NCBI RefSeq assembly: GCF_022869165.1
Contig: NZ_CP094929.1
Location: 2,728,001 to 2,792,000, forward strand
Reading direction: 5' to 3'
DNA length: 64,000 nt
Origin: Sphaerochaeta associata
GTDB taxonomy: Bacteria > Spirochaetota > Spirochaetia > Sphaerochaetales > Sphaerochaetaceae
Part shown: one piece after another, positions 25,950 through 34,503 of the stretch
How positions within the stretch are numbered: position 1 is the stretch's first letter
Layout of the letters: each line of letters opens with the position of its first letter
Translations under genes and position numbers: made by a program
Notes under the pieces: model-generated
Database searches by the model: none
Seen by the model: only the letters and a program-made list of their open reading frames with translations
Told to the model about the DNA's origin: nothing

Positions 25950-26023
25950 GGGCCTATAGCTCAGTTGGTTAGAGCATCGGACTCATAATCCGTGGGTCAA
26001 AGGTTCAAGTCCTTCTGGGCCCA
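25950..26023 (+). tRNA. tRNA with CAU anticodon (Ile2 or elongator Met)
   Basis: A 74-nt cloverleaf can be drawn: 7-bp acceptor GGGCCTA/TGGGCCC (one T-G pair), D arm GCTC...GAGC, anticodon loop CTCATAA with CAU, T arm AAAGG-TTCAAGT-CCTTC, discriminator A. CCA is not encoded. The outer anticodon-stem pair (T27-T43) and outer T-stem pair (A-C) are mismatched. CAU could be elongator Met or the Ile2 tRNA whose C34 is changed to lysidine; the GGGCCTA acceptor is that commonly seen in tRNA-Ile, but sequence alone does not settle it. Confidence 0.85.
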
Positions 26024-26691: not shown

Positions 26692-28818
26692 TTACACAAT
26701 AGCTTCTAACTCTTCTTCATCGTCTTGATTTTGGAAATCAGAATCTGTATCGGAGAGTGGGAGATCCTGATTTCCTATCGATATTGATATCTTATAATCC
26801 TCAGCAAGCATGGTACGATTGAATTCTGCAGTAGGATTAATTTCGTTTACCAGTGCTTCCAGTTCATCCAAGGTAATATCAAAGAATTCCTTTCTTAAAT
26901 TTACCTTGTTCATCCTTCTACTATGTAGTCTCTTATGTAATTCATTCTCCAATCCAACAGCATCTTCTGAGAAAATGAAGCTATGAACATCAAATTTAAA
27001 GGGCACACTTGCACTACCAAGTTCATCAACACGCTCCTGAGGATCAAGTCGTCGAGTCATGCCAACCTTGAATACATGGTCACCAAAGGATCCCAGGTTG
27101 CTGATGATATATACATTCCCTGCCTTACCATTCTGCAACTTGATGATCTCATCCTTCTTTTCTTCGACCTGCCCAAGGTGAATATTCAACTCTTCCAACT
27201 TCGCGATGATTTCAACCCGTTTGGATGAATCTTCTGGTTCAGAATCTAATTGCTCTCGAACTTTCTCGATTTCCGCCTTATACTTCGATTCTTCGAATGC
27301 AATCTGCTTCCGCTGCTCTTCCAACCGCTTCCGCTCTTCAGCTTCCTCTCTCATCTGCTGACGTAACGCTAGCTGCTCCTGCCTGGCTTGCTCTCTCTTG
27401 ATGTAGTACTCGTATTCAATCCGCACGGCATTTTCAAACAGATGTTCTAATTCGCCAATAAATCTCCTCATGGTACCTACGATACTTTGATTACCATCAG
27501 TAGCTATCACAAGATATTTTGAAATGAGTGCCTGAACCTGCAACAGGGCATTATCAAGTTTCTCGTATTTAAGGTTATAGAGTATATTTTGCAATTCTGA
27601 GCTCAACGAGATTACCATCAATTTGTAAATGGCTTTGTTTGCTTTTGTGGTATACCTTTGCTCATACTCAGCAAATAAGGCCTCCAGCTGTTTATGATTT
27701 TCCCTGAATTCTTTTCTCAGCTCTTGGTAGTTCATGTAGTTAAGCGTCAGCATAACTGAAGGAGCCATCGAGTCTAAATCTACCTTGTCTTGTTCTGTTA
27801 AAGGCTTATAGAATACCGATGGAATTTCGGTCGTATGGAAGCGATTAACGGCATGTTCTACGGCACTATACAGTTCTTTGAATCTTACCAATTTGAGTTT
27901 CTGACTCTCTAACCGCTTTTCCAGTTTCGAACAAGTATCATCAAGTTCCCCTTTCTCGGTTTTTAAAGAAACCCGCTCATCCTGCAAGTGAACCAATTCA
28001 GTTTCAATTCTGGCAATCTCATCTTTGATTTGCCGCTGTTTCACTTGTGCTGACTCTAAATCGGTTATACCCAGCTTTAGAATTCTATCCTGTTCTGTTT
28101 GGAGTCGCTGCTCAAGAGAACCCGACTTGTTCTGTTCGGTCTCAAGCTGATGTTTTAAAGATCCGCTCTTGTTCTGCTCATATTGGAGATGATGCTTGAG
28201 CAATCGAGTTTTCCGAAGGAAGAAAACTAAAAGGATAATCACCACCAAAACGAGTAGATAGAGAATTTCTATAGGCATTACCATCCTCACTTTTTGACCT
28301 TCTGGTGGAGGCAGAGCCTGCCCAAAGTCAATTGTGTTTTCAGTAGAATTTGTGTTGAGATTTACAGGTTCACTCTTAGAACCAGTTTCTCCAACCGATT
28401 CAACAACGATTGGAGTAGAGACAGGGCTCTCGATGAGTACAGCAGGTTCATCCAGGTAAGTATCCTGAGAATTAAGTATCGTGGCTTCCATGTCCCTATT
28501 CAGTTCGGATACTGTCGGGATCTCAGAATCGATCGAATGAACGCTACGATCATTTCCCTCAGGTATGGGAGCATTAATAGCAACTTCCGTAATAATAGGT
28601 TCTTCAGTTAGTGGAGTTTCGTTGACTATAGCAGGTGATTTTTCGATTGTCTCTGGTATTGGACTTTTAAGACTATCTACATTCTTCTCAATATCTATTT
28701 GTTCAACTCTCTGGGTATGTTTATCCAGCTCAATCTCTTTAGCTGTTGTACAACCAATAGAAAAGAACACTGGGAGCAATAGAATTAATATTACGAGAAC
28801 AATCTCCGTTTTTCTCAT
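26692..28818 (-). CDS. membrane-anchored DUF4041 / T5orf172 GIY-YIG protein
   Basis: 708 aa. N-terminal signal peptide with possible lipobox FSIGC (Cys23), an acidic, Thr/Pro/Glu-rich stretch (25-175), one membrane segment (~180-205: ILYLLVLVVIILLVFFLRK), then a coiled coil (~205-330) with three tandem copies of a YEQNKSGSLKHQL-like 14-mer, a DUF4041-like helical region (~330-560, ending in an EERKRLEEQRKQ coil), and a C-terminal GIY-YIG/MUG113 domain (~570-665: VYIISNLGSFGDHVFKVGM, RVDELGSASVPF, then EL..RL). Soluble DUF4041-GIY-YIG proteins are common on prophages and islands; this one carries an added exported and membrane part. The acidic tail ends DDEEELEAIV. The region is AT-rich accessory DNA. 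Confidence 0.8.
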   Translation of the reverse strand: MRKTEIVLVILILLLPVFFSIGCTTAKEIELDKHTQRVEQIDIEKNVDSLKSPIPETIEKSPAIVNETPLTEEPIITEVAINAPIPEGNDRSVHSIDSEIPTVSELNRDMEATILNSQDTYLDEPAVLIESPVSTPIVVESVGETGSKSEPVNLNTNSTENTIDFGQALPPPEGQKVRMVMPIEILYLLVLVVIILLVFFLRKTRLLKHHLQYEQNKSGSLKHQLETEQNKSGSLEQRLQTEQDRILKLGITDLESAQVKQRQIKDEIARIETELVHLQDERVSLKTEKGELDDTCSKLEKRLESQKLKLVRFKELYSAVEHAVNRFHTTEIPSVFYKPLTEQDKVDLDSMAPSVMLTLNYMNYQELRKEFRENHKQLEALFAEYEQRYTTKANKAIYKLMVISLSSELQNILYNLKYEKLDNALLQVQALISKYLVIATDGNQSIVGTMRRFIGELEHLFENAVRIEYEYYIKREQARQEQLALRQQMREEAEERKRLEEQRKQIAFEESKYKAEIEKVREQLDSEPEDSSKRVEIIAKLEELNIHLGQVEEKKDEIIKLQNGKAGNVYIISNLGSFGDHVFKVGMTRRLDPQERVDELGSASVPFKFDVHSFIFSEDAVGLENELHKRLHSRRMNKVNLRKEFFDITLDELEALVNEINPTAEFNRTMLAEDYKISISIGNQDLPLSDTDSDFQNQDDEEELEAIV

Positions 28819-28861
28819 GGTATCTTGGTCATCTTATCATGAAAGAGGGATTAAGAAATAA

Positions 28862-29478: not shown

Positions 29479-30546
29479 TCACTTATACATAGGCAGTTGA
29501 TCGGGATTCCGAACATACGTAGTGTTCCTTCCACTGCCTTGGCTGAGTATGAAGCCTTCTTCCTTGAGGCGCTTGAGAGCAGCCTCCACTGAGGAGCTGC
29601 CGATGCTGGGGCAAAGTTCGAGAATCTGGGCCTTGGTGAATACTCCCAAGCTGTCCTCAACAGCTTTTCGCACGATCTCATATGAGCTACTCTTACGGTC
29701 GACTGAGCCAAGCCTTCTCTCAAAATCACGATAACAATTCAGGACAATCCCAAGAAGGTACTTGATGAAGGATGTGTAGTCATTGGTACCATTATGCCAT
29801 CCGCTGGAGACCTTCCCCAATACATCGTAATACGTATCCTTCGTCCTCTCAATCTTCTGCTCGATACTGATATACTTGCCGACAAAGAATCCACTCTGGT
29901 ACAAGAGCAGAGTAGTAAGAAGCCGGCTCATGCGTCCGTTGCCGTCATTGAAAGGATGGATGCAGAGAAAGTCGCATATGAATATCGGGATCAGTATCAG
30001 CGTATCGACTACCTGATTATCAAGTGCCTGCCGATAACTTGCGCAGATAGCATCCACCGCCATCGGTGTCTCAAACGGCTCAAGCGGAGTGAATCTGGTG
30101 AAGGAACCTCCATCGGTATGGGTCTCGTTGATATAATTCTGCGTGTTCTTGTACTTACCACCGAAGGTCTTGCCCGTGTATGCCAATAGATCCCTGTGCA
30201 ATTGCAGGATTACATTGCCATTGAGCGGGATGTGCTTGTAATTCTCGTGGATTGTTTTCAAGGCATCGCGATAGCCCGCAATCTCTTGCTCATCACGGCT
30301 GCGGGGTGTAGTTTTTTCATTGACCAACTCCCGCATCCGTGCATTCGAGGTTCCTATGCCCTCGATTCTGTTCGAGCTGTCGGTGCTCTGGATTTTCGCC
30401 ACCTCGATCAAGCGTTCCAACTCTACCGGTTTCTGTCTGAGATACAGATCCTGTTTTCCCTTGTGCTCGCGGATCTGAGCAACGAGCGAAAGTACCTCTC
30501 CGTCCCAGGAGCTCTTTTTCAGCTGGTCATAATCAAATTCGCGCAT
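29479..30546 (-). CDS. Fic family protein (AMP transferase) with C-terminal winged helix
   Basis: 355 aa. N-terminal helical region with autoinhibitory motif S58-NRI-E62-G63 ([ST]xxxE[GN]), so a class II, self-inhibited Fic. Core motif HPFNDGNGRMSR at 197-208 is complete, including catalytic His197, so it should transfer AMP (or a related group) to hydroxyls of target proteins. Residues ~285-345 form a winged-helix-like domain (VFTKAQILELCPSIGSSSVEAALKRL). The Shine-Dalgarno GGGAG lies inside one copy of a TCTCCCA/TGGGAGA box repeated four times over the promoter, which suggests autoregulation through the C-terminal domain. Target unknown. Confidence 0.9.
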   Translation of the reverse strand: MREFDYDQLKKSSWDGEVLSLVAQIREHKGKQDLYLRQKPVELERLIEVAKIQSTDSSNRIEGIGTSNARMRELVNEKTTPRSRDEQEIAGYRDALKTIHENYKHIPLNGNVILQLHRDLLAYTGKTFGGKYKNTQNYINETHTDGGSFTRFTPLEPFETPMAVDAICASYRQALDNQVVDTLILIPIFICDFLCIHPFNDGNGRMSRLLTTLLLYQSGFFVGKYISIEQKIERTKDTYYDVLGKVSSGWHNGTNDYTSFIKYLLGIVLNCYRDFERRLGSVDRKSSSYEIVRKAVEDSLGVFTKAQILELCPSIGSSSVEAALKRLKEEGFILSQGSGRNTTYVRNPDQLPMYK

Positions 30547-32829: not shown

Positions 32830-34503
32830 TTATCTATTATACTTAGCCATACGAATTAGATAATTCAATACCAATTTTTTACGATATTCCTCAGGTTCTT
32901 CAGTAGTGATTCCTTCAGTTGTATATACACTGTCACAAAGACTTACTGTTGATATGAAGTTTTTAATGTAGTTTTCATTAGTGATTCCGCAATATTTTAT
33001 ATGCGCTGCAACAAACCGGGAAAGGTAGTCTTTGTCATCAAGATCAACACCGAATCCACAGTAGTCGCTCATTTTCTTAACCCCTTCTTTATAAGCAGTT
33101 TCAACCGATCTATTAGGTGCCCTTTCTTGAATAGATTGTGAATACTTATCAACAATCGTATCAAATGTTTCCACAGAAAGGCTAGTTTTCGGGATATCTC
33201 GATCAATTATGCTCTTATATTCAGTATTGGCTACAGGTACAAGATTATTTTGATAATCGGAGATAACGCTGTTCAGATAGCTTACTACTTCCTCCACCGT
33301 GTCAACTCCAATTACTGTCTTGAACCGTTCAACAATCTTGTCCTTGTCGTGAATGTAAAAATTGTAGTGATCACCGCCTTTATTGCCAAGAGAATACCCT
33401 GTGAGGTTCTTATAATCAAACACGAGAGGCTTATGACCATTTGTACTTAGATTATTCCAGAATTTCACTCCAGTATTGGACGCTATGGAATCGGTAAAGC
33501 TACTCATGGATAAATCCTTATATTCTTGATAATTGCTGAAAGATGCAGCTCTGTCAAAATAATATGAGAGTATTTTATTGGAATCTCTAAAAAAGTATGG
33601 AATTATTTCTTTAATGAATTCGAGATCAATCAAATTAAGAGTATTCTCTGCCAGGAAAGAATCAAACCATGCTTTTGCCGTTGTATCGTCTATAAAAAAG
33701 CCACCATTGCTCCATTTTCTCGATGGGTCTGTATAGGAAGCAAATATACCATCGTTTGATTTCGCAGTGACCCCAATGCTATTTATCCAATATCCATACG
33801 GGTAATACCATGCATCATTAATCAGCTTACCATCAGTTCTACCTTCAAATGGTGTACCAAATCCTGTATGGTTATTGAGCCGTATTGTCGTGGCAATAAT
33901 GTTGTTTCTCAACATTCCGTTTTCATCATACTCTTCACTCGAGAAATCGATTCCATACCGATTAGAATCATCAATCTTCATATCCAGATATTCTAGAATA
34001 TTCAGCTCACCGTAGTTTTCTGCGAATGTAATCCCGTTGCTCCCGGAGCTCGAAGAGGTATAAAGAAACATTTCGCGGAGAGAAAATGTTTTTGTGCTTT
34101 TATAATAGTAATAATCAAAGAACCCAACTGTATAGCCTGAATCCTGCAGCGAAAACAAACAATACAACCCATCAGGGTTGATCTTTACAGTTTCAAGGAT
34201 TATATCAAAGCCCCAAACGCTTGCACCCCTGTAACTGTTTTCAATTTTTGACTTGAGGTTATCAGCTGATACTATCTGAAGAGATTGAAGAATCGGGAAA
34301 GTTTGATAAATTGAATTTGAATTAATGCTACCACTGACTTTTTCTATCCTATAGGAAGTAAGTCCTCTGCCTGTGCTCGCAGAAAAAGAGGGAATGAAAA
34401 CCACATCACCGTTTACCTGATTAGTATCGAGAGAACATGACGATACAGCGATTATGCAGCATGTAATTACAACGAGTGCAAAAAATGATTTGAATCGTTT
34501 CAT
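32830..34503 (-). CDS. lipoprotein of unknown function
   Basis: 557 aa, AT-rich. Signal peptide with lipobox VSSC (Cys23). The mature part is rich in Asn, Ser, Tyr and Phe, with long beta stretches near the front (SLQIVSADNLK, YCLFSLQDSGYTVGFFDYYY) and helices near the end; no motif recognised. The style (Ser/Asn-rich, CSLDTNQ start) resembles other large spirochaetal lipoproteins of unknown role. Monocistronic; about 300 bp upstream there are repeats but no partner gene. Confidence 0.75.
   Translation of the reverse strand: MKRFKSFFALVVITCCIIAVSSCSLDTNQVNGDVVFIPSFSASTGRGLTSYRIEKVSGSINSNSIYQTFPILQSLQIVSADNLKSKIENSYRGASVWGFDIILETVKINPDGLYCLFSLQDSGYTVGFFDYYYYKSTKTFSLREMFLYTSSSSGSNGITFAENYGELNILEYLDMKIDDSNRYGIDFSSEEYDENGMLRNNIIATTIRLNNHTGFGTPFEGRTDGKLINDAWYYPYGYWINSIGVTAKSNDGIFASYTDPSRKWSNGGFFIDDTTAKAWFDSFLAENTLNLIDLEFIKEIIPYFFRDSNKILSYYFDRAASFSNYQEYKDLSMSSFTDSIASNTGVKFWNNLSTNGHKPLVFDYKNLTGYSLGNKGGDHYNFYIHDKDKIVERFKTVIGVDTVEEVVSYLNSVISDYQNNLVPVANTEYKSIIDRDIPKTSLSVETFDTIVDKYSQSIQERAPNRSVETAYKEGVKKMSDYCGFGVDLDDKDYLSRFVAAHIKYCGITNENYIKNFISTVSLCDSVYTTEGITTEEPEEYRKKLVLNYLIRMAKYNR

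Follow-up and report, generated by a model that had tools for sequence, protein, structure and literature searches.

Why should the gene of a nuclease begin like that of a lipoprotein? The question is raised by a locus in a stretch of 64,000 nucleotides from Sphaerochaeta associata (contig NZ_CP094929.1, positions 2,728,001 to 2,792,000; hereafter the window), in which a single, unbroken frame of 708 codons with an ATG start (26692..28818, minus strand, as for all parts of this gene given below) was identified by ORF analysis and a family HMM match as a lipoprotein-type SNIPE nuclease in its long form. The answer that we favour, and hold to be quite probable, is that it encodes an anti-phage nuclease of the SNIPE family in which a lipoprotein export module has been fused before the membrane anchor, and that two products are made. 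Family membership, intact catalytic residues, a conserved architecture and conserved start signals are directly supported by the analysis.

The protein contains two hydrophobic segments, residues 6-24 and residues 183-201, the latter within the transmembrane (TM) helix. The signal peptide (residues 1-22; 28753..28818), recognized by hydropathy and by a match to PROSITE PS00013, is followed by Cys23, the putative lipidated residue (28750..28752), and by a Ser/Thr/Pro-rich exported stretch (residues 24-182; 28273..28749), which is predicted to be disordered and for which pLDDT in the AlphaFold2 model was about 30-55 across residues 51-181. The preliminary description had proposed an acidic stretch of about 150 residues here, which agrees with the 159 residues and net charge of -19 obtained. 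Next come the TM helix (residues 183-203; 28210..28272), with its C-terminal side predicted inside, a first coiled coil (residues 204-329; 27832..28209), a helical middle domain of type B with conserved Lys/Arg at the position of DUF4041 (residues 342-441; 27496..27795), a second long helical region (residues 447-562; 27133..27480), and the GIY-YIG nuclease domain of the T5orf172/MUG113 type (residues 567-660; 26839..27120). For the middle domain and the long helix pLDDT was mostly 80-94. Three tandem 14-residue repeats had been described in the coiled coil (28075..28200), of which two are good units (residues 207-220 and 221-234, 11 of 14 positions identical) and the third (235-248) is weak, sharing only 5 of 14. 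The lag-14 self-match of the coiled coil was above chance (0 of 2,000 shuffles), and no tandem DNA repeat was found in a TRF run. Since the repeat equals two heptads and is missing in the seven other long homologues, we take it as a local extension of the coiled coil, not as a central feature of the protein.

Assignment to the SNIPE (PD-lambda-1) family, including its mechanism class, is well supported. The PADLOC model PD-Lambda-1 (PDLC03976) matched residues 186-686 with 1.1e-76 over profile positions 7-477 of 491, and phrog_1847 matched with 3.2e-90; the same two models are the best matches of E. coli SNIPE itself. The GIY-YIG assignment made earlier was borne out by Pfam MUG113 (residues 583-660, 3e-18) and T5orf172 (residues 568-660, 1.3e-14) at the C-terminus. 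SNIPE is the name given to PD-lambda-1 in a 2026 paper, where it is described as a nuclease of the inner membrane by which phage DNA is cleaved while it is being injected (PMC13190303). The E. coli protein has an exported N-terminus, DUF4041, and a GIY-YIG nuclease in which E414 is essential, and it is toxic to its own cell without its TM (PMC13190303). As a reference for E. coli SNIPE we used a phage-borne copy annotated as PD-lambda-1 (L015), whose identity was confirmed by a check of E414 and of eight residues mutated in that study, all of which stand at the published positions. Its E414 aligns with Glu624 of the window protein (26947..26949), the predicted catalytic residue. The catalytic residues, whose check had been left to an alignment, are kept: E624 is present in 45 of 46 type-B homologues, and Y570, R589, and H612 of the nuclease domain are likewise conserved, so that loss of the catalytic residues in all homologues is not what is seen.

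The membrane anchor preceding a cytoplasmic nuclease, by which PD-lambda-1 is recognized, is predicted by sequence from the TM at 183-203 and the positive-inside rule in eight of the eight long homologues. Since SNIPE is an inner-membrane nuclease, such an anchor is normal for the family, and the earlier remark that GIY-YIG domains of this type are normally soluble is wrong for it: among SNIPE homologues, 59% have one and 7% have two predicted TMs within the first 70 residues (PMC13190303). The topology suggested earlier, with an exported N-terminal part, the second hydrophobic helix as anchor, and the nuclease behind it in the cytoplasm, is supported by family membership and by what has been published on how E. 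coli SNIPE is oriented and works (PMC13190303), and so is the idea of a defence protein located at the membrane.

The label DUF4041 for the middle domain had to be dropped. PF13250 (DUF4041) detects E. coli SNIPE (1e-19) and L008, a homologue from the same genus (1e-23), but gave no match to the window protein with the threshold relaxed to E=10. By BLASTP, the middle regions separate the homologues into two groups with no matches between them: type A contains E. coli SNIPE, L008, L007, and 21 homologues from viruses, whereas type B contains the window protein, its family relatives, and 43 viral homologues. In profile comparison by hhalign, the two types aligned at full length over 279 columns with 100% probability, and their middle regions alone showed a weak similarity (76 columns, 54.6% probability). 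The family HMMs (PDLC03976 and phrog_1847) align through the middle region of the window protein. Judging from the full-length and middle-only profile scores, the middle is therefore either a DUF4041 that has diverged strongly or another domain that has taken its place. The domain keeps ten Lys/Arg positions in at least 85% of type-B rows, which would suit DNA binding; tape measure protein binding may not carry over, because the domain has no PF13250 match and its profile similarity is weak. Other candidate identities were set aside. Foldseek against PDB returned nothing at E<=0.001; the structure matches from VIA-align were long helices, with Z up to 10.5, a range common for helical models, and this list barely tested the GIY-YIG part. 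Sequence matches to the solved structures of OXA-10 and YbgF were weak (E 0.02-0.09) and were taken as chance.

Homologues were searched for in 139 genomes, the same set serving for family and order, and SNIPE matches were found in 10 of them. The long form occurs in eight of these ten genomes, including that of the window, and in six genera, with lengths of 668-730 aa and the same plan; two entries, L001 and L004, are apparently one gene. That the N-terminal part might be a separate, misjoined gene is contradicted by the same open arrangement in seven further genomes. Class- and phylum-level searches revealed no additional long form. In the tree the eight long homologues form one group, with an extension-less paralogue, L014, inside. 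After the Cys they have 135-192 residues with a net charge of -18 to -31 and no further Cys, and their TM is flanked by 3-7 K/R inside versus 0-2 outside (4 versus 2 in the window protein). Mean pairwise identity among them is 17% in the exported stretch and 22% in the TM, as against 66% in the middle domain and 84% in the nuclease. A predicted lipoprotein front before the SNIPE anchor, found in one spirochaete clade among the genomes searched, is the novel feature of these genes.

The gene has two sets of start signals. Directly ahead of the TM, an in-frame ATG is found in all eight long genes, occupying the same alignment column in seven of them. In the window protein, the Met of this column is Met179 (28282-28284), and the predicted start of a short, canonical SNIPE form is Met181 (28276..28278), preceded at 6 nt by the Shine-Dalgarno (SD)-like GTGAGG (28285..28290), with which an SD is aligned in 8 of 8 homologues. 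GAGG or GAGAGG precedes the internal ATG, usually by 6 nt, and among the in-frame ATGs of each gene it is always this one that has the strongest anti-SD pairing (rank 1 of 11 to 16). The mean SD energy was -7.2 kcal/mol, compared with -0.8 for 289 other internal ATGs; this strength was reached in 0 of 5,000 permutations and the total in 0 of 1,000 synonymous recodings, although eight related sequences are not independent trials for these statistics. A strong SD is often met ahead of one or another in-frame ATG within a gene (in 120 of 334 ORFs of a genome sample), and only its aligned position in all eight genes is unusual. Because the residues encoded at the SD vary (Val-Arg in the window, Glu-Arg, Glu-Gly, or Glu-Glu elsewhere), it is the DNA signal and not the peptide that is conserved.

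The ATG of the long form, on the contrary, has a weak or absent SD in the eight genes (+1.0 to -4.2 kcal/mol, with a median of -6.3 for the first ATGs in a sample of this genome). An extended -10 promoter-like box, TGATAAGAT (28831..28839), ends 12 nt before it, as in a leaderless-type start, and seven of the eight genes have such a box, TGNTANNNT, whose end lies 12 nt ahead of the long ATG (11 nt in one gene). Of the 334 sampled ORFs of the genome, only 3, the window gene among them, have an extended -10 box at 10-13 nt before the ATG. From the usual distances between the -10 box and the start site, a box so near the ATG implies a leader of about 5 nt. In the paralogue L014, the SD-bearing Met15 is the only usable-looking start. 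Given these conserved start signals, one gene probably gives rise both to a long lipoprotein form from a leaderless start and to a short SNIPE of the canonical kind, and we consider two isoforms likely on the strength of the sequence. In the simplest reading, the canonical SNIPE start was retained when the lipoprotein module joined upstream, and both starts would be used.

An ordinary SNIPE with one product, in which the internal SD and ATG are a fossil of the start used before the fusion and only the long form is made, is the alternative that survives best. The internal Met is located exactly where extension-less SNIPE relatives begin, and the single clade of long forms implies one fusion or gain event; both observations speak for such a history. 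A fossil start should have decayed, however, and this one is kept in all eight genes in spite of the differing residues (VR, ER, EG, EE), within an extension only 17% identical, where synonymous recoding does not reproduce it. We therefore regard the single-product explanation as unlikely and retain the reading with two starts in use.

Lipidation of Cys23 is very probable. The preliminary description had already proposed a signal peptide with a Cys23 lipobox, and FSIGC does fit PS00013 at the end of the hydrophobic residues 6-24. The strict pattern was found in the window protein and six of the seven other long homologues; L012, with L-M-G-C instead, is missed because of N at -4. These lipobox calls rest on patterns. 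In a 464-kb sample of the same genome, PS00013 was matched by 20 of the 105 ORFs that open with a hydrophobic segment, and these 20 include another with S at -3. If the first helix were instead an uncleaved signal anchor, the protein would cross the membrane twice as a hairpin, its N- and C-termini both being cytoplasmic, as in the SNIPE homologues with two predicted TMs; the presence of two hydrophobic helices and the S at -3, which makes the lipobox of the window protein non-classical, would fit such an arrangement. Against it, the first hydrophobic helix of every one of the eight long homologues ends in a Cys (position 21-25) that G or S precedes, compared with the 20 of 105 ORFs given above for the pattern in this genome, and the gene of signal peptidase II (LspA) was found in the genome. 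The hairpin is thus very unlikely, and a cleaved, lipidated front module is the preferred reading.

In the mechanism that we propose, the export module, consisting of a signal peptide, a lipidated Cys, and an acidic disordered linker of about 160 residues, would be fused ahead of the normal anchor. By analogy with E. coli SNIPE, the TM helix would keep the coiled coil, the DNA-binding middle domain, and the GIY-YIG nuclease at the cytoplasmic face, where the membrane-bound nuclease would be harmless to the chromosome and cut incoming phage DNA during injection. The variable N-terminus of SNIPE has been proposed as an adapter (PMC13190303), and the exported module may in the same way locate a phage or the host entry machinery in the envelope. 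The long lipoprotein form would be started on a near-leaderless mRNA and the short canonical SNIPE at Met181, and the two may mix via their shared coiled coil.

Insertion of the lipid into the outer membrane is speculative; the lolCE model gave a match below its cut-off. Bridging of both membranes by one molecule is a possibility suggested by analogy with the unimolecular spanins (PMC6139136), of which T1 gp11 has the same front topology, with a lipoprotein signal, a Cys-free periplasmic stretch, and a downstream TM. That comparison concerns only the way of working: T1 gp11 is the product of a lysis gene, has a mainly beta-sheet periplasmic domain, and carries no nuclease (PMC6139136). Despite its lipoprotein signal and downstream TM, the window protein was not filed as a spanin, which would be encoded in a lysis cassette and end at its TM; here 500 cytoplasmic residues follow the TM, and no lysis genes were seen near the SNIPE gene in the inspected contexts. 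A match to the Rz-like spanin family phrog_89 (E 0.0025, residues 187-275) covers the TM and the cytoplasmic coiled coil and was rejected as coiled-coil similarity. It is conceivable, but rather doubtful, that a leaderless, outer-membrane-lipidated, envelope-spanning form and an SD-driven short form co-assemble by the coiled coil into a nuclease held beneath the points at which phage tails pass through both membranes, their ratio being set by conditions favouring leaderless initiation.

Defence against phage is highly likely as the function of the window protein, judging from its sequence relationships. The next full-size gene upstream (29479..30546, minus strand) encodes a Fic protein resembling SoFic (2.7e-41), a family known for single-gene defence, and a tRNA-Met gene (25950..26023, plus strand) lies on the other side, so that the locus looks like a small defence-type insertion spot. 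GC3 is 0.40 in the SNIPE gene versus 0.54-0.76 in four genes across the tRNA-Met. In one relative (G358) the tRNA-Met 3' end occurs in two copies 62 kb apart, around an island of about 62 kb. No att duplicate was found around the window gene in its own genome, where one copy of the tRNA 3' end is present, and for this reason we do not claim an island whose ends are defined. In another relative (G455) the SNIPE neighbour is an AbiL/AriA-like ATPase; the remaining relatives have metabolic neighbours. Because the relatives share no common partner gene, SNIPE acts as a single-gene unit. Farther from the nuclease, positions 32830-34503 of the window encode a 557-aa putative lipoprotein of low GC content (0.367) with no Pfam or PADLOC match.

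That this membrane-tethered GIY-YIG nuclease serves housekeeping or a mobile element instead of phage defence has little probability: the metabolic contexts of several relatives, which lack a defence partner, and a middle domain that is not Pfam DUF4041 would agree with it, but the PD-lambda-1 match spans the whole length, presence is patchy (10 of 139 genomes), type-B relatives are abundant in viral contigs, and SoFic-like and AbiL-like neighbours occur in two contexts.

The anti-phage SNIPE thus favoured resembles the E. coli protein (PMC13190303) in its TM anchor, exported N-terminus, coiled coil, helical middle domain, and GIY-YIG domain with an equivalent of E414, and differs from it in the lipoprotein module of about 180 aa in front, in a middle domain undetectable as PF13250, and in the conserved internal start, which predicts two isoforms. 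Cas11 (PMC11899642), an unrelated protein, is known to be produced from within a defence gene by translation that begins internally and in frame; it is a small subunit, whereas the additional product predicted here would comprise almost the entire nuclease. SNIPE is a recent case in which self and non-self are told apart by location, and the N-termini, which vary across the family, are the proposed adapters determining which phages get caught. A fast-diverging lipoprotein adapter and a second start for an adapter-free form would provide a natural comparison with and without the adapter in one gene, rendering the adapter idea directly testable. The family is extended to a predicted lipidated nuclease that may span the envelope, and to a type of middle domain missed by current Pfam annotation.

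Two further SNIPE genes were atypical. L014 is the second SNIPE gene of genome G482, lying about 12 kb from L012; its catalytic Glu is replaced by Val and four further conserved nuclease positions are altered, which makes it a decayed or inactive SNIPE next to an intact one. L006 (G347:C6) is a C-terminal SNIPE fragment with an in-frame TGA close to the contig end, possibly a broken gene.

A direct scan of viral_contigs with the single window protein gave no match; homologues were obtained by an alignment-based scan. The lipoprotein extension was present in 0 of 64 viral-contig homologues with a readable frame (a few of them near-duplicates), those of type B included. Type-B homologues from viral contigs (e.g., L023, L026, and L035) share the middle domain and the nuclease with the window protein, at about 40-59% identity; their N-terminus lies at the TM or immediately ahead of it, or they carry a Cys-rich motif or lack a membrane segment. 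This Cys-rich, zinc-ribbon-like motif, comparable to the DUF4428 of the SNIPE paper (PMC13190303), takes the place of a TM at the opening of many of them, namely L039, L042, L043, L045, L046, L048, L051, L053, L057, L058, and L066.
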